21,302 nt of DNA, from positions 1 to 21,302 of IMG/VR virus record IMGVR_UViG_3300047354_000221; one strand, given 5' to 3'. Every line of letters starts with the position of its first letter. Position 1 is the first letter of the stretch. The notes below the pieces were generated by a model. It made no database searches. It was not told the origin of the DNA and was given only the letters and a program-made list of their open reading frames with translations. A program made the position numbers and the translations under genes. This DNA is from a virus. Positions 1-16,256 of this stretch are shown here, piece by piece.

Positions 1-1197
1 TGCCTGATCACCAATTACATAAGCACCATTAAACTTAGATTGAATTGCCTGAATAGACTTAGGCAGAATCTTACTATAAGGTTCCTTATTGTCCTTATCG
101 TAAGACCCATATTCAATCATTGCCCCCGCTTTTTGTGCAGATGCCACAGTAGCATCATGAACTGGTTTATATCTATCATCCTGATTGGATGGAGGAACAA
201 ATACTGCTTGATACCCTAGTTCTTTAATTGCTGCGATTGCCGCCGCAACTCCTTCTGCTCCTTTCTGAGGATCAGCGAAATCCTTAGAACCAGCAGTAAG
301 AATAACATGCTGCTTGTTACTTTGTTTACCTTCTGGAGTAGTGTTTGCACCATTGCCCTCGGTTTGTTGTGAATCTGCTATCGCACTTTCTTGATCATTA
401 CCATTATTATTAGCGAGCACAACGGCAGTAGTTCCAACAACAGCAGTAGTTGCCAGCAACGCCAATCCACCTCTGCCCCTCAATCGCATCTTCATCCCCT
501 TCATCCCCTTCAGGAGATTCTTACGGAATGTTGTTAATACCCAGATGAAATCTTTAACTAACTTTGCTGGATTCTTTAACCATCTTAGACCTAATAGTAA
601 TGTTCCTAGTGATAAGAAGAATTGACCAAAACCTACCAGTTTTTCCCACCAAGTTGCCTCAGGGTCAAACATTGCACCAAGACCATCCAGTATCCCTCCA
701 ACAGTACCTTTGAAGAAATTGAATATGAACGTTGCTACAGTGATAACACCATCAACAATATCTTCTAATTTTTTTATATTATTTTCGTCTGCTAACCATT
801 CCAAAATCCCCCTTACAACGAAGGTTTTAAATAACCATCCTCCTAGTTTAGCAAGACTCTCAAAAAATCCTGCTACTACAGGAGCAATAAATTCGGTAAG
901 ACCACTTCCTTTCTTCTCATCATCTTTAGATACTCCCTGTAAATCACCAGAGTTTTCATTAATACCCTTAAAGAGATCCGCTTCCATTGCTGCATTGACC
1001 TTTAGGTCATCAGCAATTTTTTGGAGAATAACTCCCATGCTATTGAGTGTTGCACCAAGTTGATTACTACCTTTTACAACTTTTACAGAAATAATATTTG
1101 CTGATACAGTACCTTCAGAGTCATCTTTACTTACTTGACCCCTAGGACTTAAAAATTTATAAAAGTCTATCTTTGATGTCTTACCAGACTTCTGCAT
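1..1197 (-). CDS. Tail-associated structural protein, paralogue of the M15 protein (3' end beyond window)
   Basis: About 399 codons are visible from ATG at 1197, and the frame is open to the left edge, so the C-terminus is missing. The start shares one base with the upstream stop (TAATG). Residues about 30-210 resemble the N-terminal region of the upstream 1018-residue protein. The clearest shared block is RGILEWLADENN-IKKLEDI here (from residue 129) against RGILEWFSDEKN-LKKMEDI there. Further on come a Lys/Arg-rich stretch, a hydrophobic Ala/Val segment near residues 245-265, a polar linker, and from residue about 297 an alpha/beta domain starting HVILTAGSKDF and reaching VIGDQ at the edge. 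That domain loosely resembles an SGNH hydrolase in permuted order, but the expected catalytic residues look substituted. A role in the virion is inferred from the paralogy and the late promoter at 1256-1263. The enzymatic reading is weak. Confidence 0.6.
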   Translation of the reverse strand, partial: MQKSGKTSKIDFYKFLSPRGQVSKDDSEGTVSANIISVKVVKGSNQLGATLNSMGVILQKIADDLKVNAAMEADLFKGINENSGDLQGVSKDDEKKGSGLTEFIAPVVAGFFESLAKLGGWLFKTFVVRGILEWLADENNIKKLEDIVDGVITVATFIFNFFKGTVGGILDGLGAMFDPEATWWEKLVGFGQFFLSLGTLLLGLRWLKNPAKLVKDFIWVLTTFRKNLLKGMKGMKMRLRGRGGLALLATTAVVGTTAVVLANNNGNDQESAIADSQQTEGNGANTTPEGKQSNKQHVILTAGSKDFADPQKGAEGVAAAIAAIKELGYQAVFVPPSNQDDRYKPVHDATVASAQKAGAMIEYGSYDKDNKEPYSKILPKSIQAIQSKFNGAYVIGDQA

Positions 1198-4100
1198 TAC
1201 TTAGTAGGATAAGATGAATTTGGGTCACGATATAGAACTATAGGTTCCCCACCAGTATTTATGATCTTGGTATTGGTGATTGGGAGTGTAATTGGTACTA
1301 CAGTCTTACCCTTCTTATCTACTTCACTGTCTGCCTTATTTAATGCATTTGTTTTTGACATCGTTGCTACAGCAGGAGTGGCACCAGGTGCAGATGTAGA
1401 AGACATTTGTGGTGGAGGACTTGCTGATGCAGGAGCAAGACTACTCTTTTCATTACCATATAGTTGTCCACGAACATCATTAATTGCAGAATCTAGCATA
1501 CCAAAGATACGCGCCATCTTTTGCTCTTGAGTCTCTGCTGGTGCCTTTGATGCTTGATTATCACTATCTTGCGTAGTTGTACTATTACTAGTGTTGCCAC
1601 CTGGAGTAGTATTAACACTTGTATCAGTACTTGTATCAGTACTATCGTCTGCTGTTACAGGACTAGTCTTAACATTTGCATTAGAAGAACCACTACCACT
1701 CAAGTTTTCAAAGTGCCATGCTTCAGTAGCGCCAGGTCTGTCCCTTCGTAAACCCCAAGCACTTTTACTCAGTGTCTTAAATCCAAAGGTTTCAGAATTA
1801 TCCCACAACCACTTATATCCTGCATCAAAGTAGTTAAGGTCAGCAGCAAGACCAAATCCATGATTAGATGTTCCTGGAACTGCTGCTGTACCACGAGGTT
1901 TAGTATTATACATGTGCTGTTGATCAGCAAATGTTCTAAAGGTATCATTAATACCAATAGGATGACCCGCTTTCTTAGCAGCATCCAACATAGATTGAAA
2001 CTGCTTTGCAACACTCTTATGCAACTTACCTTTTCCTGCTTGCCCCCAACCTGCATAACCTTTCACTCCTTGCATCTCGGAAGCAGGTACTTCTCCATTC
2101 TTATACTTACCTATTGGACCACCACCTGCGAAAGCAGGCAGTTCTCCACCAAGAGCAAATCCTGTCCATCCAGCAGCACGATAGTTAGACTTTGCGGGAT
2201 TTGAAACAGGTGCTAAATCTTTTGGTTGTATTGGTTGTTCATTTTCGGTCTGCCACCTAGAAAGAGCACCAGTGTTTGTACTAGTAGACTTTAAACCACC
2301 ACCCTTTGCAAGTTCTGGTGCCTTATCTTCATCCTTGTCTATTCCCTCAGGTTTTTGTCCTTCTTCATTGGTAAACATACCAATGAGTGCTTTAAGTGGA
2401 CCAGCAGGAAGATTATCCTTTGCAAAGGTATTAACTTGGTCAATAAGACCTTTAGCACCAGGAATTGAACCTATCATAGCATCTTCCATTTGTCTGATAC
2501 CAGGAATCAGATCTCTAAACAAAGAGAATACGTCAAGTCCTAATGAAACATAGGGACCAGCAGCAAAACCAAATGCTCCAGATAAGTCAAACGCAGCAGA
2601 TAATGCTTCAATACCAGCACCAACTACATCGCCATCAGTTAAGCGATCATATGCAAATAGTAAGTTAATAAGACCACCAACAATTGGTAGTGCTTTACCA
2701 CCAATTCTTTGAATAAGTGGTTTCGGTTCCAATAGAGAAAGACCTTTCTTCTGAAGGTACTCCTCCATCATTATACCTGCACCAGAAGACATGACCTTGC
2801 CCATAACCTGTCCTGCCATTGCCTTGATGGGTTTCATCATTGGTTCAAAGAACTTACCCAAAGGTTCTACGATCTTTGCTGTCGCAAAATTCTTAACCCA
2901 ATTTCCAGCACCTTTTAAACCATTATCTGCCCAAGCAACAGCATCTCCTGCCTTACTCTTAAGATTAGCACCAAGTGTTCTTGCCCTATCTCCGTATTTT
3001 TTTCCTATATCTAAACTCGTTTCCCATGCTTTTTTTGCCTTGTCAGAGAACCTAGCATAGATTTCTGCTGCGCTTCCACTCAATCCATACTTTTTACGTG
3101 CATCTTTTATTTGTTCTGCAATTACAGCGGCAGGTTTATCAATCAGAACACCTTTGAGATTCTTGGCATGATCACCCAAGAAATCTGCAAATTGCATCAG
3201 ACTGCTTTTAATCCCCTCTGCTGCGGAGACTGACACATCCTCAAGAGTATTACCAAGTCTTCCCAGTAAACCTGCTGGTTTATTCTTCCTTGCTTGTTTT
3301 ACTAATGCTTCTATACCTGCTTCAGTAAGTTCTTCGCCTGACTGTTTGGCAACTTTTCTTAATCTAGCATATTCTTCTGCTTGTTCAAGATTCTTAAAAC
3401 CATGCCTCTTCTTAATATTTTCAAGAATTTCTGCTTTGGATCTTACATTATTAGTATTTGGAGTTGGTGTTGTTTTTGGTTTGGGATTATTTGGATCAGG
3501 TATATCATCAGACGACTGCAATGCATCAAACAATGTCATTGCGTCTTGGATAAGACTAAATGGATTTAGTAGATACGATAATGCCTTTAGACCTATTATG
3601 CCTGTTAAAAGGGTTCCCACCCCTACAATCATATCCCATGCGCCACCTAGATTACCATTAGCAATCGCTTTAGCACCGCCAAAGATCTTGGCAAGACCAT
3701 CAAATATTGCGCCTACACTAAAAGTAACTAACTTATATACAAAATCCCCAACCATCTTAAGAGTATTGAAGATGTCTTCCATCTTCTTAAGATTTTTTTC
3801 ATCAGAAAACCACTCAAGTATTCCTCTTGAGATTGCAGTTCTTGCTAACCAAGCAAACAAATTACCGAATGGTCCGAGAATTTTCTCTAACCATCCAAGA
3901 GGATTCTTTTTCTTCTTAATTTCATCCTCTAAACCGTCTTCTAATCCATCTTTACTTTCTGAACTTATCCCACCTTCTGCTTCTATCTCTGCTCTAGCAT
4001 CTCTTCTGAGATCACTAAGTCTTTCTTGCTCTGCAAGTTGATCCCCTAAGAATGATGATCTATTGGATATTGTTTCAGAAATATCCATCATCACATAACC

Positions 4101-4253
4101 CATACCCTCCAGAGTCTTACCAATTTGATTGGCAGATGTAACTACAGAGTATACTGATTGTTTAACCGAGCTAGCAACCTTTATCCCCCCAGATTCTTCA
4201 CTAGAAACCGTAGTGGGGATCAACTTATGTGGTTTGATTTTGGATGCTAGCAT
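1197..4253 (-). CDS. Large tail protein with C-terminal peptidase M15 (VanY-like) domain
   Basis: The protein has 1018 residues and starts with ATG at 4253, just downstream of the gp51-like frame. Residues 1-240 hold the region shared with the next gene (RGILEW at 143-148). Helical, Lys/Ala-rich sequence follows, with hydrophobic stretches near 200-230 and 515-590. From about 735 to 855 there is a peptidase M15 / D-Ala-D-Ala carboxypeptidase-like domain. It has SNHGFGLAADL near residue 797 and AWHFE near 845, which supply the His, Asp and His zinc ligands of this family. A Ser/Thr/Asn-rich linker and short tail end the protein. M15 enzymes cut peptidoglycan cross-link peptides, so a role in local wall digestion during DNA entry is inferred. 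Its place right after a gp26/gp51 chaperone-like pair, its length and its hydrophobic helical segments would also fit a tape measure protein with a muralytic domain. That is not proved. Confidence 0.75.
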   Translation of the reverse strand: MLASKIKPHKLIPTTVSSEESGGIKVASSVKQSVYSVVTSANQIGKTLEGMGYVMMDISETISNRSSFLGDQLAEQERLSDLRRDARAEIEAEGGISSESKDGLEDGLEDEIKKKKNPLGWLEKILGPFGNLFAWLARTAISRGILEWFSDEKNLKKMEDIFNTLKMVGDFVYKLVTFSVGAIFDGLAKIFGGAKAIANGNLGGAWDMIVGVGTLLTGIIGLKALSYLLNPFSLIQDAMTLFDALQSSDDIPDPNNPKPKTTPTPNTNNVRSKAEILENIKKRHGFKNLEQAEEYARLRKVAKQSGEELTEAGIEALVKQARKNKPAGLLGRLGNTLEDVSVSAAEGIKSSLMQFADFLGDHAKNLKGVLIDKPAAVIAEQIKDARKKYGLSGSAAEIYARFSDKAKKAWETSLDIGKKYGDRARTLGANLKSKAGDAVAWADNGLKGAGNWVKNFATAKIVEPLGKFFEPMMKPIKAMAGQVMGKVMSSGAGIMMEEYLQKKGLSLLEPKPLIQRIGGKALPIVGGLINLLFAYDRLTDGDVVGAGIEALSAAFDLSGAFGFAAGPYVSLGLDVFSLFRDLIPGIRQMEDAMIGSIPGAKGLIDQVNTFAKDNLPAGPLKALIGMFTNEEGQKPEGIDKDEDKAPELAKGGGLKSTSTNTGALSRWQTENEQPIQPKDLAPVSNPAKSNYRAAGWTGFALGGELPAFAGGGPIGKYKNGEVPASEMQGVKGYAGWGQAGKGKLHKSVAKQFQSMLDAAKKAGHPIGINDTFRTFADQQHMYNTKPRGTAAVPGTSNHGFGLAADLNYFDAGYKWLWDNSETFGFKTLSKSAWGLRRDRPGATEAWHFENLSGSGSSNANVKTSPVTADDSTDTSTDTSVNTTPGGNTSNSTTTQDSDNQASKAPAETQEQKMARIFGMLDSAINDVRGQLYGNEKSSLAPASASPPPQMSSTSAPGATPAVATMSKTNALNKADSEVDKKGKTVVPITLPITNTKIINTGGEPIVLYRDPNSSYPTK
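1256..1263 (-). promoter_or_regulatory. Candidate T4-type late promoter for the left-edge gene
   Basis: The minus strand reads CATAAATA, matching the NATAAATA form of the T4-like late promoter. It lies inside the 3' end of the M15 gene, about 60 bases before the ATG at 1197. Late initiation here, with sigma gp55 and co-activator gp33, would give the downstream paralogue its own transcript. An eight-base match in AT-rich DNA can arise by chance, but its position just ahead of a structural gene supports it. Confidence 0.5.
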
Positions 4254-4258
4254 TACGC

Positions 4259-4447
4259 TTACTTGTTGTTTCTATCTTTGTACCTCTTCTCCTCTTCTTT
4301 CAAATGGTTGATCAAGAGGTTAACATAAACATCTTTTTCCCATGGCATAATATTATCCAAATATTCAGGGTTCCACTTATGATGGTGAATCAAAGCGAAA
4401 TTAGTCTCATAATAAGTTTGAAGACTTGTATGGAGAAGGACTAGGCG
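4259..4447 (-). CDS. 51: gp51-like baseplate hub/tail assembly extension, read by -1 frameshift from gp26
   Basis: This 62-codon open frame begins inside the last codons of gp26, one frame back, and ends with TAA at 4259-4261. It reads RLVLLHTSLQTYYETNFALI, then a His-rich HHHKW, PEYLDNIMPWEKDVYVNLL, and a charged helix ending KDRNNK. The block around a basic/aromatic KW, a short acidic helix, MPWE and a helical YVNLL resembles C-terminal parts of phage tail assembly chaperones and, from memory, short proteins annotated gp51 in cyanophages. No start codon in this frame has a ribosome-binding site: the first ATG is at 4348, deep inside the conserved block, and a TTG lies at 4393. A canonical slippery site at the junction would give a fusion of about 298 residues. 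gp51 is known in T4 as a baseplate hub assembly factor. The frameshift itself is an inference. Confidence 0.65.
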   Translation of the reverse strand, partial: RLVLLHTSLQTYYETNFALIHHHKWNPEYLDNIMPWEKDVYVNLLINHLKEEEKRYKDRNNK

Positions 4448-5154
4448 AAAAAACTTGCTAAACCCTCAAGTTGGAGAGTCTGTTTTTTCTTAGTCTTAGG
4501 ATTAGTAAATTTAATGTCGTGAGATAATTTAGGCATTGTTTCAAAAAACTTTTGAATTTCTTGAAACTGTGTAGTATTCAATTGATCAAGGAACTCAATC
4601 AATTCTTCCTTTGAAGACTCTTTCGCTTCATATACTTCCTCACCTTCAACAATTTGAAGAATGCAATCTGTAGTCAATTCAAATAGACTTTCTACAGTAG
4701 AATTGGTCTCAAAGTTATTTTTAACAAACATATCCATACTAGGATATTTCATAACCATTGAAATTTTATTATCCAACTTCAAGATGTTTGTATGCTCAGG
4801 TTCAAATTTCACTTCAATCTCACTAAGATCAACTGTTACCTTAACCTGAGTCTCATTATCATCGGGTGAAGTTACCATAAGATCAACAGTTTCACCTACA
4901 GACTTTGCACGAATGTTCAGGAAAATATATTCAAAGTCAAAAGTGGCAAGTCCTTTGATATCTGTATCAGATAGATTAGTGCAGTTAAGCAGTAAAGTCT
5001 GTACAGTATCAACCATTTGTGCTTGATCTTCTGTTTCCATTGCTAACAATAGCAATTTCTCTTCTTTTACCAGAAATGGGCGATATTTAATTCTTTTCCC
5101 GTCAGAAGGTAGTTTCAATTCATAACGAGGAACATTTAACTTAGGTAATGGCAT
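4441..5154 (-). CDS. 26: gp26-like baseplate hub subunit
   Basis: The protein has 237 residues (T4 gp26 has 208) and starts with ATG at 5154, 24 bases after the gp54 stop. The N-terminus, LPKLNVPRYELKLPS followed by IKYRPFLVKEEKLLLLAME, is the signature of the T4 gp26 base plate family (Pfam T4_baseplate). The rest is a mixed alpha/beta domain with acidic helices near 165-205. gp26 belongs to the central hub on which the tail tube is built. Its position between gp54 and a gp51-like frame agrees with marine T4-like phages. The last codons form a slippery T run, so part of the product is probably extended into the -1 frame. The ordinary product ends ASFFA at the TAG at 4441. Confidence 0.85.
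   Translation of the reverse strand: MPLPKLNVPRYELKLPSDGKRIKYRPFLVKEEKLLLLAMETEDQAQMVDTVQTLLLNCTNLSDTDIKGLATFDFEYIFLNIRAKSVGETVDLMVTSPDDNETQVKVTVDLSEIEVKFEPEHTNILKLDNKISMVMKYPSMDMFVKNNFETNSTVESLFELTTDCILQIVEGEEVYEAKESSKEELIEFLDQLNTTQFQEIQKFFETMPKLSHDIKFTNPKTKKKQTLQLEGLASFFA
4447..4467 (-). promoter_or_regulatory. Candidate programmed -1 ribosomal frameshift site (gp26/gp51)
   Basis: In the gp26 reading frame the mRNA is AGU UUU UUC GCC UAG. The heptamer U UUU UUC (4453-4447) fits X XXY YYZ exactly, three codons before the stop. A Shine-Dalgarno-like GAGGG lies at 4467-4463, nine bases upstream, close to the spacing of the stimulatory SD in E. coli dnaX. Downstream, AGUCUU and GAGACU can pair as a six-base stem with a loop of about 12 bases. 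A one-base slip opens the 62-codon gp51-like frame. Confidence 0.65.
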
Positions 5155-5178: not shown

Positions 5179-6120
5179 TTAGCGGTTCAGAGTTGGACCA
5201 AAGAAGTTCAAAGGTTCTGTCCCTGGAGGTTGGTTAAAGACAGCAGCGGAAAAATTATAGTTGCCAACTCTTGACGCTGCAGAGAAATCAAAGTTATTTC
5301 CAAATAACTCTGTATAGTTACCATCAAAATTTTGAAAGAATTTAGCAGCGTCTTTACCAAGACTATCTAGATACTCTTTTTCTGGACTCTTCTTATCTTG
5401 ATTCTTAGTTGACATGTTAACATTTCTATTGTTTGGATAGAATCTGAAGTTTCTATATTGGAATCCAACATTAAATGTAGTGTAGTTTGCTTGCCCTGAT
5501 TGCATTTCTACTTGTCCCAAATTGTATGGGAACACATCTGCCAAGCACCAAACACCTGTAATATCATTCTCGTAATAGAACCCTCTCTTACTATCTGTAT
5601 TGCGACCAGTCCTTTGCTCTGGAATAAGATCGTCTTCTGTAAAGAATCTCTTCTTACCGCCACCCCTTTCCATCTTATAAATCTTCATCGTACATGTGTA
5701 ATTGTCTAAGAGATCCACATGTTGAGTAGTATCATTCATGATCAAATTTATCCACCTATCAAAAAAGGTATAGGTTTGCATTGATCTGGGCATGATGAAT
5801 GAGACACTTATCTCACTATGACTCTGACCAGTAGCATACTTATAAGCAGAACCAATATTATTTACAGTTGCGGTTGTCAAGTTCCTACTAGGAGATGAAA
5901 CACTAGATGCATAGTGATTCAATAGAGTTGCTAGTCTATCAGAGTTTCTACCATAAGGAATCAGAGCATTTCCATACATCTCCTGGAGTACTCTAGGTTG
6001 CCCAAACTCAACTCCATAAAGATTATTAAGAGAAGGTGCATCCTTGTTACTCTTAATAAGTGATTGAAACTGTGTAAAAGAGTTATCACTAAAGCGACTT
6101 TCGTTGAATCTAATTGACAT
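5179..6120 (-). CDS. 54: gp54-like baseplate tail tube initiator
   Basis: The protein has 313 residues, near the 320 of T4 gp54. It starts with ATG at 6120, overlapping the gp4 stop (TAATG). The central region looks like a tail-tube-type beta domain: ISVSFIMPRSMQTYTFFDRW, then YTCTMKIYKME, then GVWCLADVFPYNLGQVEM and a strand-rich FNVGFQYRNFRFY. In T4, gp54 sits on the hub, binds gp48 and nucleates the gp19 tail tube. The Phe/Asn-rich C-terminus (residues about 255-313) is less ordered in appearance. The assignment rests on domain pattern, length and gene order. The alternative is gp48, but the plus-strand protein at 6571-7602 fits gp48 better. Confidence 0.75.
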   Translation of the reverse strand: MSIRFNESRFSDNSFTQFQSLIKSNKDAPSLNNLYGVEFGQPRVLQEMYGNALIPYGRNSDRLATLLNHYASSVSSPSRNLTTATVNNIGSAYKYATGQSHSEISVSFIMPRSMQTYTFFDRWINLIMNDTTQHVDLLDNYTCTMKIYKMERGGGKKRFFTEDDLIPEQRTGRNTDSKRGFYYENDITGVWCLADVFPYNLGQVEMQSGQANYTTFNVGFQYRNFRFYPNNRNVNMSTKNQDKKSPEKEYLDSLGKDAAKFFQNFDGNYTELFGNNFDFSAASRVGNYNFSAAVFNQPPGTEPLNFFGPTLNR

Positions 6121-6570: not shown

Positions 6571-7602
6571 GTGGCATCTAATAAGAAATCGGTCACGCTA
6601 AAGTATCCTGAGAAATTACCCTTTGCGGAGAAGGGTAGGGGAGCAGCTGATAGTTATCAAGCAGAATATGCAGATTATATAAAATTTTCTAGATATCAAT
6701 TTAAGAATAGTGGTGGTCCTCAATACTTTAACGTACCAGACAATTCAAATAAAACTAATAAGGAGTTAATTACATCTGCTTATATTGCAATGCCGTCGTC
6801 GCTCTCTGCCGACTACGGTGTTAACTATCAGCAGGCAAACTTAGGTGCTTTAGGTAAAGCAGCAGTTGGTGCATTAGCATCAGAAAGTTCTGGAGAAATT
6901 GCTGCAACTCTTCAAGAAGCAGCAAAAGCAGGTTTACCTGAATCTGCATTCAACAACCTATCTCAAGGCATCCAGGGTGTTGGTGGACTGATCGGTCTGA
7001 ATACCGATGGCATCTCTCCTAATATGCTATCTGCAATCTCTCAAGGTAAAGTATTCAATCCTTACTCAGAACAAGTATTTCAGGGTGTAGGATTTAGAAG
7101 TTTTAACTTTAACTTCAAGATGGTTGCTAGAAGTGAGAAAGAAGCACAAAGCATTCAAGATATTCTTGAGATGTTTAAGACTGGACTACTGCCCTCATAT
7201 GGTTCTGGTGGCAGTGGTAAGGGAGGATCTCTTGGAGGTCTACTGACTAAAAGTGGTGCCAATCAAAGATTCTTGAATGTGCCAGATAAGTTTCTGATTC
7301 AATTTATTAGAGTTGGAGAAGATTCATTATCATCACAAGCACTTGATCACTTCAAGATTGATTACTGTGTATGTACCGCTATGAGTGTAAACTATACTCC
7401 AGATGGTCAATATGTCGCAATCAAAAATGAACGCTTGAAGAAAGCGTACAGAGCACAGAACAAAAATCTAAGTTCTGGTTCTCCAGATAATATGACTCAA
7501 GGTCAAGCACCTGGGATGATCTATGTCCCTGCAATTACCTTAGATCTTCAGTTTACTGAAACATCTATCATCACTCAAGAAAAAGCAATCGCTGGATACT
7601 AA
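6571..7602 (+). CDS. 48: gp48-like baseplate tail tube cap
   Basis: The protein has 343 residues (T4 gp48 has 364) with a GTG start. No ATG lies upstream in frame before a stop at 6532-6534, and the late promoter at 6537-6544 sits just ahead. The N-terminus has LKYPEKLPF and an aromatic DYIKFSRYQF. An Ala/Gly-rich segment spans residues about 75-165. A tube-like beta domain follows with FRSFNFNFKMVARSEKEA, LNVPDKFLIQFIR and CVCTAMSVNYTPDGQYVA, ending in LDLQFTETSIIT. In T4, gp48 works with gp54 at the interface of baseplate and tail tube. The stop overlaps the gp53 start (TAATG). Confidence 0.82.
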   Translation: MASNKKSVTLKYPEKLPFAEKGRGAADSYQAEYADYIKFSRYQFKNSGGPQYFNVPDNSNKTNKELITSAYIAMPSSLSADYGVNYQQANLGALGKAAVGALASESSGEIAATLQEAAKAGLPESAFNNLSQGIQGVGGLIGLNTDGISPNMLSAISQGKVFNPYSEQVFQGVGFRSFNFNFKMVARSEKEAQSIQDILEMFKTGLLPSYGSGGSGKGGSLGGLLTKSGANQRFLNVPDKFLIQFIRVGEDSLSSQALDHFKIDYCVCTAMSVNYTPDGQYVAIKNERLKKAYRAQNKNLSSGSPDNMTQGQAPGMIYVPAITLDLQFTETSIITQEKAIAGY

Positions 7603-8549
7603 TGCCTGCATATTTCTCATATCTACCTAACATTTACGTTGGCACAGGAACATCCTCAGATGCCAAGCAAGAGTATGTTGTTGTCAAAAATATCTTCCGT
7701 AGGGTAAAAGCACGAGAGGATCTAAACAAATATACTGAGTTCTTTGAACAAGTATCTATTGAAGATGGGCAAATGCCATGGCAGATTGCTGAAGAATACT
7801 ATGGAGATCCTGAACTAGATTGGGTTGTACTCCTCACCAATAATATCATTGATATGTATGGTCAATGGCCCGTAAGTAGAAGGGAATTGGAATACTATAC
7901 ATCGCAGAAATATGATAACGTAGATGGAGTTCATCATTATGAAACTAATGAGATTAAATGGAACGACATTGTAATGGTTGAGAAGGGAACTATTGTTGAT
8001 GAATTTTTCTCTTACAAAAACCCAGATGGAACTGTCATTAGTGGTCTAAATGCAAGACTGCCTGTAAGTAACTGGGAACATGAATATTTTCAGAATGAAC
8101 TTAAAAGAAATATCTACATTACACTTCCAACTGCATTAGATGCATTCATTGAAGAATTTGATGATTTGATTGGATACGAAGCGAGTGATGAACTTGACGA
8201 GAATGGTGTTAAGAAGACCAAATTGTCTATCTCAAGTAGGTTCCTGAGCAAATCAAGTGGTGGTGGTATTGGTCGTCAATACACTGCAACGTATACTGGA
8301 ACTGGTAGAACAATCACTAATCTACAGGTTGCTACATCAGGTAGTACTAGTGGTGTATCATTTACGACTGTTCAGGCAGACGCTTCAACAGGAATACAAG
8401 TTGCTTCATCTTCCTCCTCAAGTGGAAGTACAGCATCAACCTCTAGCAGTAGTTCTTCCTCTAGTAGCAGTAGTAGTAGTTCTTCTAGTAGCAGTAGTTC
8501 TAGCAGCAGTAGTTCTGGAAGTTCTGGTGGTGGATACGGCGGATATTAG
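7602..8549 (+). CDS. 53: gp53-like baseplate wedge subunit with Ser-rich C-terminal extension
   Basis: The protein has 315 residues, against 196 in T4 gp53. Residues 1-210 look like the gp53 wedge protein: an N-terminal FSYLPNIYVG, then VKNIFRRVKAREDLNKY, then GQMPWQIAEEYYGDPELDWVVLLTNN, a LysM-like stretch typical of gp53, then WPVSRRELEYY. T4 gp53 helps link baseplate wedges around the hub. From about residue 215 the sequence changes to Gly/Ser/Thr-rich, with a run of 25 serines and a final GGGYGGY. The extension is odd for a wedge protein. It may be a flexible surface or linker segment. The gene is translationally coupled to gp48 and ends just before a strong terminator. Confidence 0.8.
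   Translation: MPAYFSYLPNIYVGTGTSSDAKQEYVVVKNIFRRVKAREDLNKYTEFFEQVSIEDGQMPWQIAEEYYGDPELDWVVLLTNNIIDMYGQWPVSRRELEYYTSQKYDNVDGVHHYETNEIKWNDIVMVEKGTIVDEFFSYKNPDGTVISGLNARLPVSNWEHEYFQNELKRNIYITLPTALDAFIEEFDDLIGYEASDELDENGVKKTKLSISSRFLSKSSGGGIGRQYTATYTGTGRTITNLQVATSGSTSGVSFTTVQADASTGIQVASSSSSSGSTASTSSSSSSSSSSSSSSSSSSSSSSSSSGSSGGGYGGY
8442..8516 (+). repeat. Serine-tract repeat in the gp53 C-terminus
   Basis: Twenty-five successive Ser codons occur here, 17 of AGY type and 8 of TCN type. A 15-base unit, TCTAGTAGCAGTAGT, is seen at 8460-8474 and 8484-8498, with a one-base variant at 8499-8513. The tract is therefore partly a DNA repeat that can expand or shrink in frame. The mix of two codon families shows it is not a simple trinucleotide run. 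Confidence 0.9.
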
Positions 8550-10371: not shown

Positions 10372-10400
10372 TGTATAGACGTAGCGTTCTATTTAGGCAA
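10372..10400 (-). promoter_or_regulatory. Candidate promoter upstream of gp32
   Basis: On the minus strand TTGCCT (10400-10395) and TATACA (10377-10372) are 17 bases apart, each matching four of six sigma-70 consensus positions. The site straddles the end of the oxygenase gene and the 47-base gap before gp32. This is one of the few true gaps in the block, so separate control of gp32 is plausible. The motif match alone is weak. Confidence 0.35.
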
Positions 10401-11147
10401 TGGTGCTTCCCAGTCATACTTGCGTTGCCAGGGAGGACTCGTAACATTCTGGTCCAACATGAAGTTGGCAGACAGAGTGATTCGTTTCTCACCTTGCTTA
10501 TTGTAGTACGGCATGACCCAATGTGTCAAGTTTGCTGGGAAGATCAGGAAACGTCCAGGACTAGGATCACCAACAACAAACTCATTGATAGCGAATGGTT
10601 GTGGGGATCCCGACAAGAAGGTGGTCTTGCCGTTGTTTCTCCATGGAGTTTCCGACTCTGGGAAAATAGTGCTCATCTCCGTTGGTACATCTAAGTATAG
10701 TATGGAACTCAGATCACAGTTGTGGATGTGTGGCGGATTAAAATCTGGACCAGGGGACGTGAAATTCACCCAAGCATTCACTAGACGCAACTCGGTATGG
10801 ATCTCGGCACCATCACCATCAGATCCCTGGTTAACGCGAGCAGCGTTATATGCAATAGGGGTAGAAGGTCCAATACGCCCCGCAGCACTCAATTCATTTA
10901 GATATCTCTGCACAAAAGGAGCGAGCATTGGTGTCAATACAGTTTGTGAAAATTCTTCACTACACCATACTTCTCTTTCAATGTTACCCACCAGTCCCAT
11001 ACTAGCATCATCACGTTGCTTAGAATTTGCATGTTCTAAGATGATGTTGCGGTCTTCTTCGGAAATAAATGCCGCATGAATACCAGGACCGAATGGAAAG
11101 ATAGTATTTCCAACTACGGCAGGTTGTGCATTTTCAGGTGAGTTCAT
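10389..11147 (-). CDS. 2-oxoglutarate/Fe(II)-dependent oxygenase family protein
   Basis: The protein has 252 residues, with ATG at 11147 overlapping the DUF1825 stop (ATGA). The C-terminal half carries the pattern of the Pfam family 2OG-FeII_Oxy_5: NAWVNFTSPG, then PPHIHNCDLSSILYLDVP with candidate metal-binding His residues, then GRFLIFPANLTHWVMPYY with the distal His, and a final RITLSANF whose Arg would bind the 2OG carboxylate. Such enzymes hydroxylate proteins or small molecules using oxygen and 2-oxoglutarate. The substrate cannot be read from the sequence. Oxygenases of this family are common in marine T4-like phages. The N-terminal 110 residues are less conserved in appearance. Two other oxygenases in the window have quite different surrounding sequence, so this is not a recent duplicate. 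Confidence 0.8.
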   Translation of the reverse strand: MNSPENAQPAVVGNTIFPFGPGIHAAFISEEDRNIILEHANSKQRDDASMGLVGNIEREVWCSEEFSQTVLTPMLAPFVQRYLNELSAAGRIGPSTPIAYNAARVNQGSDGDGAEIHTELRLVNAWVNFTSPGPDFNPPHIHNCDLSSILYLDVPTEMSTIFPESETPWRNNGKTTFLSGSPQPFAINEFVVGDPSPGRFLIFPANLTHWVMPYYNKQGEKRITLSANFMLDQNVTSPPWQRKYDWEAPLPK

Positions 11148-12320: not shown

Positions 12321-12978
12321 AGAATTCTTTTTGGTAAGATTTAAGTAATTGTAAATAGTCATTAAGATTGTACTTCTGAAATACTTGAATAGATCCCTCT
12401 TCAGTGGCGATAAGTGTGACAATTTTCTTTACCTTAATACCTGTACGTTCATAGAACATAGCAGCGTAAGCGGACTCTTGTACGAAATAGTTTTCAATGT
12501 AAGATTCCTTCTTCTCTTTAGTTGAAGTTTTAAAATCAATTACTGCTAATTCATTATCAAATTCAGCAATGCAATCAACGCGACCAGCGAGAGCGAGAAC
12601 GTGACTGTAAAGAGGGGTTTCAAGAGCGTGAATGTTATCCACCCGAGCAAGAGTCTTACGAGCCATTTTGTACATGTTGAGTGCAAGAGGGTCTCGTTCA
12701 TACTTTTCCTCGTTTAGTATACCACGGATGTGGTCCTCTAGTATAGCATGGAAACTGTTTCCTCGCTTGGATGCTCTCGTAGAAATACGATTTGCTTCAT
12801 CTTCACCAACTCGGCGTCTCCAATCAGCAATAGATTTACGAGAGCGAATGCCAGTGACAGTTGTTACTGATGGATATGGTTTATCTACATTAGGAAATTT
12901 ATAAAAACGTTTTCCGTTTTCTTGAACTACTGTAGGTTCTTCCAGACTATCATAAGTAACATCAACAAAATTAAACAT
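12304..12978 (-). CDS. PD-(D/E)XK exonuclease, RecB/MGME1-like
   Basis: The protein has 224 residues, and its ATG at 12978 shares a base with the upstream stop (TGATG). It carries the order of motifs of a RecB-like nuclease: PSVTTVTGI near 36, KRGNSFHAILEDH near 71-83, AGRVDCIAEFD near 131-141 with the catalytic Asp, LAVIDFKTS near 144-152 with D-x-K, and FVQESAYAAMF near 165-175 with the Gln/Tyr helix. This family cuts single-stranded or flapped DNA and includes mitochondrial MGME1 and phage exonucleases. A role in recombination or in processing replication intermediates or host DNA is inferred from the neighbours gp33, gp59 and gp32. All expected catalytic residues are visible. Confidence 0.85.
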   Translation of the reverse strand: MFNFVDVTYDSLEEPTVVQENGKRFYKFPNVDKPYPSVTTVTGIRSRKSIADWRRRVGEDEANRISTRASKRGNSFHAILEDHIRGILNEEKYERDPLALNMYKMARKTLARVDNIHALETPLYSHVLALAGRVDCIAEFDNELAVIDFKTSTKEKKESYIENYFVQESAYAAMFYERTGIKVKKIVTLIATEEGSIQVFQKYNLNDYLQLLKSYQKEFYATQD

Positions 12979-13589
12979 CAGTACTGATATCCTACAATAT
13001 TTAGATTGAACGCAATTGAAATGCGATCTTCACGAGAATAATTTGGATATACCCCATGATATAGTTCAGATGGAAATATAAACATATCTCCGTCTCTAGG
13101 CATAACCTCAATTAGAGGACCATACTCAGCAAGTTTGCAATGCTCTTCAATGATCGGATTATGTGGTCCAGGTCTCATAAAGTATAGAGCACCAGACTTA
13201 GGAGGTACTTTAACATAGTAGATACCACTAAAGTGTGTACCTCCATGATTGTGTGGTTTATTGTAGTGGCCGCGGCCATTAACATTCATCCACAATCCAG
13301 CACCTTGAATATTCCATTCCCCTATTTTAGCATTAGAGTCCTTCAAGTGTTCCTTCAAGAGACTTTTTGCAACTATAAACAAGGGTTGCCATGCCTCACC
13401 CTTTACGGTAGGTGCAGATTGATACCCACCTACATTACTAAACTCCATTGATCTATGATACTCTTTCTGAGTTGTACGAACTAACTCCTCAGATACAATA
13501 TCAAGTCCAACATTTTTATAGGTTAAAGGAGTTGGAAAGAGATTATGTGTTTTTTGTTCTAAATCAGAACTTTCAGTATAAATGGACAT
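12978..13589 (-). CDS. 2-oxoglutarate/Fe(II)-dependent oxygenase (second)
   Basis: I take the ATG at 13589, which overlaps the PhoH stop by one base (TGATG). A TTG three bases earlier is the alternative. The product has 203 residues. It fits the 2OG-FeII_Oxy_5 family: a first half with LFPTPLTYKNVGLD typical of its N-terminus, then GAGLWMNVNGRGHYNKPHNH and HFSGIYYVKVP with metal-binding His, then a beta strand with GDMFIFPSELYHGVYPN (distal His) and EDRISIAFNLNI (Arg). The motifs are more canonical than in the oxygenase at 10389-11147, so an active enzyme is likely. The substrate is unknown. The gene lies between phoH and the nuclease in one coupled run. Confidence 0.87.
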   Translation of the reverse strand: MSIYTESSDLEQKTHNLFPTPLTYKNVGLDIVSEELVRTTQKEYHRSMEFSNVGGYQSAPTVKGEAWQPLFIVAKSLLKEHLKDSNAKIGEWNIQGAGLWMNVNGRGHYNKPHNHGGTHFSGIYYVKVPPKSGALYFMRPGPHNPIIEEHCKLAEYGPLIEVMPRDGDMFIFPSELYHGVYPNYSREDRISIAFNLNIVGYQY

Positions 13590-14368
13590 CAATAACCAAG
13601 ATTTAATTTATTCATTAGGTAGGAACGTACTAGACCAGATCTAACAATATCTTCAACACCAAACTCTGTAATATCAAACTCTGGCATTTGTTGAAGAATA
13701 CGCATGAAATCTAGGATACCATTACGCTCATTCTCTTTAACCAAATCTGTCTGAGTAACATCACCACAGAACATAATTTTACAATTATCTCCCACACGAG
13801 TGATCATACTATCAAGTTCATGAAAATTCAAGTTTGAAAATTCATCAACAATTACAATACAGTCATCCATAGTAACACCACGAATGAATGAAGTTGACCA
13901 GAAAGAAATAGTTTCTTGAGATTTAAGATTATCATACAGCATATCAAAGCTGTTGTCATCTGGCATCTTAAACATATACTTTACCATGTTCTTATATGGA
14001 ACCTGGTAGAGCATAGACTTATCTTCATGGGTTCCAGGCAAGAATCCAATCTCCCTGGTAGGTACAAGAGATCTAACAATATAGATCTTCTCATAAGGAG
14101 AATCCTCATCAAGGACTTCCTTAAGTGCATTATACAGTACAATAAAAGTTTTACCAGTACCTGCACACCCATGAAGTACACAATTTTTACCTTCGGCATA
14201 TGAAGCAAATACCGATTCCTGATTATCAGTCATCGGTTCAATATTACGAAGGTATCCTCCGTCAATTGGTTTTTTACGCTTCATTTGTTTTTTAGACATT
14301 CCTGAAGATGGGTCATTAAACTGATCACCATATTTTTGGGATCTAGATTTTGATCTTGCTCTTGCCAT
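13589..14368 (-). CDS. phoH: PhoH-like P-loop ATPase
   Basis: The protein has 259 residues, with ATG at 14368 in a TAATG overlap. A basic N-terminus (residues 1-35) precedes the ATPase domain. Walker A is GCAGTGKT at 67-74, and Walker B is IVIVDEF at 171-177. TGxTH-like signalling is replaced by IMFCGDVTQTDL near 198-209. The Q-rich motif TDNQESVFASYAEGKN before Walker A is typical of PhoH. PhoH is very common in marine phages and has been linked to phosphate stress in E. coli. Its phage function is unsettled, and an RNA-related ATPase or helicase role has been proposed. Nothing here shows a pho box. It is coupled to the oxygenase downstream and to small hypothetical proteins upstream. Confidence 0.95.
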   Translation of the reverse strand: MARARSKSRSQKYGDQFNDPSSGMSKKQMKRKKPIDGGYLRNIEPMTDNQESVFASYAEGKNCVLHGCAGTGKTFIVLYNALKEVLDEDSPYEKIYIVRSLVPTREIGFLPGTHEDKSMLYQVPYKNMVKYMFKMPDDNSFDMLYDNLKSQETISFWSTSFIRGVTMDDCIVIVDEFSNLNFHELDSMITRVGDNCKIMFCGDVTQTDLVKENERNGILDFMRILQQMPEFDITEFGVEDIVRSGLVRSYLMNKLNLGY

Positions 14369-14623: not shown

Positions 14624-14854
14624 TTAAGTAAACCGAGATAAGTTAGAGCGTGGGTGTGCTTTCTGCACTTTAGACATTACCTCCTTAAACCCATTATCAA
14701 GTTTAGGGACACCGTAAGTAGTTCCTGCAATGCCTTGTGACCAGTCTTTGTCCCAGTCAGGATTTTCATCCTTCCAAGACATATATTCTTTGCAGGACAT
14801 AAGGAGTTCTTTAGTCTCGCCAGTCTTCAAATTTTTTACAGGATAGGTAGGCAT
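14624..14854 (-). CDS. Small FmdB-like hypothetical protein
   Basis: The protein has 76 residues, with ATG at 14854 overlapping the oxygenase stop (TAATG). The N-terminus MPTYPVKNLKTGETKELLMS and the motif WKDENPDWDKDW parallel the downstream neighbour. The C-terminus, NGFKEVMSKVQKAHPRSNLSRF, resembles the end of phage proteins annotated as FmdB family regulators. Only one Cys is present, so no zinc ribbon can form. It is probably a small soluble protein of the early or middle block. Function is unknown. Confidence 0.75.
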   Translation of the reverse strand: MPTYPVKNLKTGETKELLMSCKEYMSWKDENPDWDKDWSQGIAGTTYGVPKLDNGFKEVMSKVQKAHPRSNLSRFT

Positions 14855-15558
14855 TATTGTGGAGTTAGGATACGTTTAACTTTTTCACCAAAGAAATTAA
14901 TACTGGTGACTCTCATGTCATCTTTATGGACCCCAGAAATAGGTCTTTGTCCATGGTATATATGACCAGGAAACACAACCATTGTGTTGTAACTATCTAG
15001 CACAGTATACAACTCCTTATATTCAGAGTCGTTTCTCCAGGTATCAACGTGTTCAGAACCGAGAGGAGCATCGCTGATCTTCTCATAGAATGTCGTACCT
15101 GCACCCATATTATTGTGGGGATTTAAGTATACCATACAATTATAACATTCGTCAGTATGGGGCCAAAAATATGGGTCCTCTTTGCTGATATCTACTTCCA
15201 TAAACTGATTGAATATTCTCCAAGAGAACATACGAATCCCATCTATCTGCACGTCAAGAATTCTTGCCATGTACTCGTATAGATTAATCTCTACTTGCTT
15301 AGGTTCAGAGCAACGTTCCGCATAGAACTTACCATCATAAAAATTCTTGCCGTTTATATACTCGTCTCCAATAGACTTGTCTAATTGCTGTGCTTGATTG
15401 CGATTACTTTTAATACCACTCTGGGCAACATAATCTCTCACACGATCAGGATACTTGTAGTAATTATCAACAAAAATAAAATATTCCCCGTCAAAGTCAC
15501 AAACTTCAACGGAGACATCATCACTTACCTGAAAGTCTTCTTCGGTAAAAAATTTCAT
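14854..15558 (-). CDS. 2-oxoglutarate/Fe(II) oxygenase-like protein (third, DUF6445-like)
   Basis: The start is the ATG at 15558, which overlaps the ThyX stop (ATGA). The open frame reaches 15606, but that would lie wholly inside thyX. The product has 234 residues. It has FFTEEDFQVSDDVSVEVCDF, then FVDNYYKYPDRVRDYV, a WRIFNQF strand, then PYFWPHTDECYNCMVYLN with an H-x-D metal motif, GAGTTFYE, and YNTMVVFPGHIYHGQRP with the distal His. MRVTSINFF follows with the Arg. This is the arrangement of a double-stranded beta-helix oxygenase and resembles DUF6445 proteins common in marine phages. It belongs to a different branch from the other two oxygenases. The substrate is unknown. Confidence 0.75.
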   Translation of the reverse strand: MKFFTEEDFQVSDDVSVEVCDFDGEYFIFVDNYYKYPDRVRDYVAQSGIKSNRNQAQQLDKSIGDEYINGKNFYDGKFYAERCSEPKQVEINLYEYMARILDVQIDGIRMFSWRIFNQFMEVDISKEDPYFWPHTDECYNCMVYLNPHNNMGAGTTFYEKISDAPLGSEHVDTWRNDSEYKELYTVLDSYNTMVVFPGHIYHGQRPISGVHKDDMRVTSINFFGEKVKRILTPQ

Positions 15559-16256
15559 AGTATCATAATACAAGGTTGATCCATGCCATCGTAATCGTGA
15601 GGACAATCACATTCCTCATCACACCATTCCATGGCACGAGAAATTGTAGGAAACTCACACATAAAGATCTTTTTGATCGCCTTTGCAATATCCATGTGCT
15701 CTTTCTGAGTACCGTTAGCAGATCTCAGAGAAATATAATGGATCCAATTTCTGAGATTGCCCGTCATGTACATTTTGGTTGGTACGCATAAAGGAAGCAC
15801 ATTTCTGGCACATTCCTTTGCAATATTGTCATCTAGCATCTGCTGATACAGATCCATCCCTTGCTGGAAGTGGTGTTGCATCAAGATTTCATACTTTTGC
15901 TTCTTAAAAGGATCAACATCATCAATAGAATTCTGACGATTCTTGGTATCCTGACTACGAAGTTCTGGAAGAGGAATCTTATCAAAACCTAGCAGAGATG
16001 AATCTGCATAGCGTTGCGAAAATTCCTGGAATGTAAATGAACGGTGCCTCAGGATCTGAGCCGCGATTGCTCTAGTTGTGTTAATTTCAACTGTTAGTGT
16101 AGCTTGCTCAAACACACTCCAGTGTCCATGTTTAATACAGTATTTTAGAAGTCCCTCAACCTTAGGATTTTCTTGGTTTGCGGGATTGCTTACTCGTGCA
16201 ATGTACCCAATAGTCTTTTCTGCGTCTGGAGTGACAGCAATCTTACATACTTTCAT
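15555..16256 (-). CDS. thyX: Flavin-dependent thymidylate synthase ThyX
   Basis: The protein has 233 residues, with ATG at 16256. The ThyX signature RHRSFTFQEFSQRY lies at 70-83, with KHGHWSVFEQA before it for flavin and dUMP contacts. ARNVLPLCVPTKMYMTGNLRNWIHYISLR follows as the C-terminal active-site region. ThyX makes dTMP from dUMP with methylene-tetrahydrofolate and FAD/NADPH, feeding phage DNA synthesis. The C-terminus is extended by a Cys/Asp-rich tail (CDEECDCPHDYD) of no known role. Cyanobacteria of the marine picoplankton also use ThyX, so the gene may be of host type. It is coupled to the oxygenase downstream, and glutaredoxin lies about 1.3 kb upstream. Confidence 0.96.
   Translation of the reverse strand: MKVCKIAVTPDAEKTIGYIARVSNPANQENPKVEGLLKYCIKHGHWSVFEQATLTVEINTTRAIAAQILRHRSFTFQEFSQRYADSSLLGFDKIPLPELRSQDTKNRQNSIDDVDPFKKQKYEILMQHHFQQGMDLYQQMLDDNIAKECARNVLPLCVPTKMYMTGNLRNWIHYISLRSANGTQKEHMDIAKAIKKIFMCEFPTISRAMEWCDEECDCPHDYDGMDQPCIMIL

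Follow-up and report, generated by a model that had tools for sequence, protein, structure and literature searches.

Programmed −1 frameshifting at the end of gp26 very probably makes both a short and a long tail assembly chaperone in the marine cyanophage examined here; from the sequence comparisons below, we put the probability of this reading at about 0.92. The DNA analysed, hereafter the window, is a stretch of 21,302 nucleotides (IMG/VR record IMGVR_UViG_3300047354_000221). An earlier sequence-only reading had proposed that gp26 is fused to a gp51-like frame by a −1 frameshift, and the conserved heptamer, the Shine-Dalgarno (SD)-like element and the −1 frame support that proposal. The architecture, its conservation and its homology to gp26 and gp51 of T4 can be read from the sequences compared. 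The relevant features are:

1197..4253, minus strand: 1018 aa protein with a VanY domain, downstream of gp26, candidate tape measure protein (phrog_790, 4e-245; VanY, 7.4e-10)
4259..4447, minus strand: gp51-like C-terminal extension in the −1 frame, 62 codons plus TAA (phrog_634, 3e-28; C-terminus of phrog_150)
4400..4441, minus strand: site of the downstream hairpin of other clades, weakly folded in the window (z −0.9, against a mean of −2.36 in relatives)
4441..4443, minus strand: zero-frame stop codon of gp26, TAG (direct reading)
4447..4453, minus strand: slippery heptamer U UUU UUC, phased as X XXY YYZ (173/176 relatives have T TTT TTN in phase; synonymous positions invariant)
4463..4467, minus strand: GAGGG, SD-like stimulator within gp26, 9 nt before the heptamer (GAG usage; anti-SD duplex energy)
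4441..5154, minus strand: gp26, short tail assembly chaperone (TAC-N), 237 aa (PF12322, 2.5e-70; phrog_150, 5.8e-83)
5179..6120, minus strand: tail tube (gp54-like) gene, upstream of gp26 (phrog_45 tail tube, 4.6e-64)

Context of gp26

The window and Synechococcus phage ACG-2014d (Kyanoviridae, Lowelvirus) are essentially identical, and 48 records share at least 99% identity over the junction region. In the ACG-2014d record gp26 is annotated and gp51 is not, and the gp51-like −1 frame has been left unannotated in several genomes, including that of the window. The gp26 of the window falls in PF12322 (T4_baseplate) and phrog_150, and its AF2 model has a pLDDT of 88. It is preceded by a tail tube family gene and followed by the gene for the 1018 aa protein, a probable tape measure protein. 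The match of this protein (1197–4253) to a tape measure family is weak and located at the VanY domain, and the gene next after the gp51-like frame is likely, by inference, the tape measure gene. The adjacent large minus-strand ORFs at 1197–4253 and 1–1197 share N-terminal homology (phrog_790/phrog_1200 cross-hits) and are possibly tandem tape-measure-like paralogues. Elsewhere in the window, a 315 aa protein (7602–8549) ends in a long low-complexity tail that is rich in serine and glycine, and ORFs at 10389–11147, 12978–13592 and 14854–15606 resemble 2OG-Fe(II) oxygenases by eye.

A conserved slippery heptamer

In the window, gp26 ends GCA AGT TTT TTC GCC TAG, and the in-phase U UUU UUC that had been placed at 4453–4447 was borne out base by base. 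An in-phase T TTT TTC occurs only twice in the 6,844 codons of the window, and only one of the two is near a gene end. Relatives were collected using gp26 peptides from outside the junction; because these peptides did not cover it, the heptamer was not selected for by the search. In a first set, TTTTTTC was found exactly 3 bases before the gp26 stop codon in 80/80 loci. In an enlarged set, T TTT TTN was in phase in 173/176 loci, with N being C in 162, A in 7, G in 2 and T in 2. Where the second Phe has become Leu, via TTA (7 loci) or TTG (2 loci), the protein is altered and the slippery heptamer is retained.

Codon choice within the heptamer was assessed in a non-redundant set of 125 loci, 122 of which include it. 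The first Phe codon is TTT in 122/122, against 66% elsewhere in gp26, and the codon before the Phe pair ends in T in 122/122 over six different amino acids, when 62% would be expected from synonymous usage. The corresponding log10 P values of about −22 and −26, respectively, overstate independence, as the loci are related by descent. Other conserved Phe columns of gp26 contain a mixture of TTT and TTC, and this contrast holds regardless of kinship among the loci.

The named isolates with the in-phase heptamer include S-SSM4, S-SSM5, P-SSM3, P-HM1, S-RSM4, Bellamy, Aeh1 and Aeromonas 65. In pelagiphage Mosig the heptamer is also in phase and the zero-frame stop lies further downstream. Against the frameshift reading, three distant relatives (L092, L094 and L096) have an open −1 frame and no T6 heptamer. 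One of these, L096 (Ackermannviridae), has GTTTTTC, which resembles the GTTTTT motif of PMC12846349. Across the aligned relatives, the in-phase heptamer, the upstream SD-like element and the −1 frame are kept almost without exception. Relatives carrying gp51 with its own start codon and ribosome-binding site and no slippery site, the pattern that was to count against frameshifting, were not what this alignment revealed.

The −1 frame beyond the gp26 stop

The 62-codon −1 frame was confirmed at 4447–4262, with TAA at 4261–4259. The next ATG is at 4253 as had been stated, separated from the end of the frame by five bases rather than six. Read through a −1 slip, gp26 and the extension form a 298 aa fusion. 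The extension in the window has a match of 3e-28 to phrog_634 ('baseplate hub assembly catalyst', gp51) and a weak one to the last 55 positions of phrog_150, the gp26 family. For ACG-2014d, the predicted fusion-specific peptides are QTLQLEGLASFFR and LVLLHTSLQTYYETNFALIHHHK, and the C-terminus of unfused gp26 is ...LASFFA.

In 176/176 loci the −1 frame is open for 54–67 codons beyond the gp26 stop. Its aligned columns have entropies of 0.98, 0.65 and 1.45 bits at first, second and third codon positions, respectively, and in 118/118 non-redundant loci neither of the other two frames stays open beyond 150 nt. By this pattern of constraint, the −1 frame is coding. That gp26 works alone and the frame is what is left of a decaying T4-like gp51 might be suggested by its lack of annotation in several genomes, that of the window included, but a frame that is open in every locus and under strong codon-position constraint already contradicts this explanation, which we regard as scarcely credible.

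In the window, no more than about five codons of open −1 frame precede the heptamer, and among relatives the open stretch upstream of the heptamer has a median of only six codons. Positions of ATG in the window were read from L002, a sequence identical to it. The first in the −1 frame comes 95 nt after the gp26 stop, within the conserved domain, and before it there is only TTG. Thus, as had been observed, no start codon with a ribosome-binding site is within reach in the window, and a free gp51 made from its own start was rejected there. Both the window and its relatives have a short ORF followed by an overlapping −1 ORF that lacks its own start.

A gp51 made as a separate short protein, by termination and reinitiation after the gp26 stop and with the T-rich site a coincidence, would agree with the records in which gp51 is annotated as its own gene, with the ATG that many relatives have a few bases past the gp26 stop, and with the overlapping TGATG or TAATG in Rhizobium, Caulobacter and some Vibrio phages. 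An ATG near the junction is present in the −1 frame in 88/125 non-redundant relatives (approximately 70%), and a free gp51 could therefore be made there too. However, in 36/118 non-redundant loci an ATG is missing from the stretch that runs from the upstream stop to 60 nt beyond the heptamer, the window has none in reach either, and the heptamer is retained where the ATG is not. Where −1-frame ATGs are present they lack an SD, with a mean anti-SD energy of −0.08, against −6.8 at the slip site. The annotated starts of gp51 also vary, and that in S-RSM4 is inside the conserved domain. We consider this explanation very unlikely, and conclude from the sequence evidence that the gp51-like piece is very probably the C-terminal part of a fusion protein rather than a separate gene.

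L089, L090, L091 and L098 combine an in-phase T6 heptamer with an adjacent TGATG in which the gp26 stop and a −1-frame ATG share bases, and reinitiation could add a free C-terminal piece in these phages. More generally, both routes might be used in the family, with frameshifting yielding the fusion and reinitiation a free C-terminal piece in lineages with the ATG. Heptamer and ATG do occur together in most relatives, but the ATG is without an SD and is not conserved, and the Met codons may be a constraint of the protein. As a near start codon is absent, this combination is impossible in the window, and for the family as a whole we consider it unlikely, less so than reinitiation alone.

Signals flanking the slip site

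The SD-like GAGGG that had been noticed nine bases upstream of the heptamer is present at 4467–4463. The Glu-Gly pair at this position is written with GAG in 71/107 cases, compared with a background of 33%, and GGG is enriched. The computed anti-SD duplex is −6.1 kcal/mol in the window and −6.8 on average in relatives, while random gp26 segments give −0.7. These values indicate that GAGGG is selected as an anti-SD match. Because the mean is −6.8 here and about −0.1 before the −1-frame ATGs, the element appears to serve the slip site rather than an initiation codon.

Downstream RNA folds more stably than −1-frame sequences shuffled among synonymous codons: the mean z is −2.36 at +12 to +47, where 55% of loci fall below −2, and −1.26 at +24 to +59, and the rest of the −1 frame is mostly near zero. 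The hairpins are clade-specific: GCCCUC...GAGGGC, an 11 bp stem formed by AGUAUGGCGCA...UUGCGUCAUACU, and GAUCC-AUAU-GGAUC. For two hairpin types, covariation counts are above those of shuffles and slid registers. These measures show selection on a downstream hairpin in several clades but detect no such selection in the window, where the fold is no better than synonymous shuffles (z about −0.9). L188, the closest relative of the window with changes in this region, has no predicted fold, and a convincing stem is absent from the window and its subclade. The six-pair stem suggested for the window thus found no support, although other clades do have covarying hairpins, and we rejected a stimulatory stem in the window.

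These flanking signals also bear on whether RNA polymerase, and not the ribosome, slips on the T6 run to join the frames. The run of six Ts in nearly all loci would suit that explanation, but efficient RNA polymerase slippage usually requires longer runs, and a selected anti-SD match upstream with a hairpin downstream are stimulators of ribosomal slipping. Polymerase slippage is accordingly highly improbable, even more so than reinitiation alone.

Relationship to gp26 and gp51 of T4

Both gp26 and gp51 of T4 belong to PF12322. The T4 gp51 (249 aa) covers phrog_150 almost to its end, plus phrog_634, and aligns end to end with the cyanophage fusion, with the join at the slip point. A profile built from the −1 frames of the window and viral contigs alone matched T4 gp51 at 200–245 (E 4.7e-6 for 1000 sequences); the seven other T4 proteins tested gave no match. 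Thus, gp26 is homologous to that of T4 over its length, and the −1 frame piece to the C-terminus of T4 gp51. The difference is that T4 has two separate, divergently oriented full genes and no slippery site, whereas here there is one gene and a frameshift.

PF12322 genes number two in T4 and one in each of 13 complete genomes with the slip-site layout (ACG-2014d KJ019028 and 12 others), and no second copy carrying the extension was found in those 13. In T4, Berthold, KFS-EC, AnYang and AhMtk13a, gp51 is a separate full-length gene and the end of gp26 is without the heptamer. The Phe-Phe is kept in T4 but is written TTC TTT, and gp26 of a further T4-type contig has GAG TTT TTT at its end. From this distribution, the slip site is found in the layout that depends on it and is missing from phages in which a second gene gives the long form. 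Scans of viral contigs for gp26 relatives returned none with the Vibrio D481 query, only two with Caulobacter Cr30 and few with T4.

Sullivan et al. 2010 (PMC3037559) described cyanophage gp51 as 'only ~20% of the length' of its T4 counterpart, with ~200 residues missing from the N-terminus, and reported Aeh1 to be alone among T4-like phages in having no gp51. The slip would account for the short cyanophage gp51, as the missing ~200 residues would be gp26 itself. In Aeromonas phage Aeh1 (L220), we found the −1 frame and an in-phase TTTTTTC, unannotated and without an ATG. Many records are due for re-annotation with ribosomal slippage.

We tentatively suggest, at slightly less than even odds, that frameshifting is the ancestral source of the long chaperone in cyanophages, in pelagiphages and in the T4-like phages of Aeromonas, Vibrio, Cronobacter and Rhizobiales, that clade-specific hairpins turned over around a frozen heptamer, and that gene duplication and in-frame fusion later replaced frameshifting in T4 and its kin. 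Gene duplication and frameshifting would then be alternative routes to one protein pair, a case that can be tested.

Proposed mechanism

The occurrence of slipping, its rate and the chaperone action of the products are inferred. A fraction of the ribosomes on gp26 would pause at the internal GAGGG and then move back by one base on U UUU UUC, with tRNA-Phe re-pairing from UUU UUC to UUU UUU. Slipped ribosomes would pass the gp26 stop and read 62 more codons, giving the 298 aa gp26-51 fusion. By analogy with gpG and gpGT of lambda, gp26 would be the short chaperone, with the expected role of coating the tape measure protein, and the fusion would be the long chaperone, whose extension would recruit tail tube subunits.

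Comparison with known systems

A sequence search of solved structures with gp26 and the extension returned no meaningful match. In a fold search of the PDB, HK97 gp13 (2ob9) had the highest probability, 0.57, but with an E value of 1.3 this model-based match is suggestive and not significant.

Chaperone frameshifting is classical in lambda, where it produces gpG and gpGT (Xu, Hendrix and Duda 2004), and in others, 'except T4' in the words of a 2016 review (PMC5009743). The sequence-only reading knew of no description for T4-like gp26/gp51. However, these proteins were identified as tail assembly chaperones by Vladimirov, Gautam and Davidson (2022, Virology 566:9-15), as cited in PMC10885494. 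According to the account of that work in the PRFect paper (PMC10885494), some T4-like phages have a short gene and a fused long gene in place of frameshifting, and the Adele paper (PMC12846349) credits it with polyT frameshift signals in T4-like chaperone genes. No case of chaperone frameshifting in a cyanophage was found in the literature searched, which did not extend to the text of Vladimirov et al. 2022. The detailed signal, the hairpin turnover and the Aeh1 case may be newly described here.

Vandenendeviridae and Andersonviridae use a chaperone frameshift with an invariant GTTTTT (PMC12846349). As proposed here, a myophage tail chaperone undergoes −1 frameshifting at a poly-T and its extension is misannotated as a separate gene; they are different phage families, and GTTTTT takes the place of the in-phase T TTT TTC. 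The likeness to lambda G/GT is that an in-phase slippery heptamer, conserved in relatives here, ends the short ORF. The lambda heptamer is G GGA AAG, whereas that of gp26 is U UUU UUC, in a different sequence family (PF12322) and accompanied by an SD-like element and hairpins that vary between clades.
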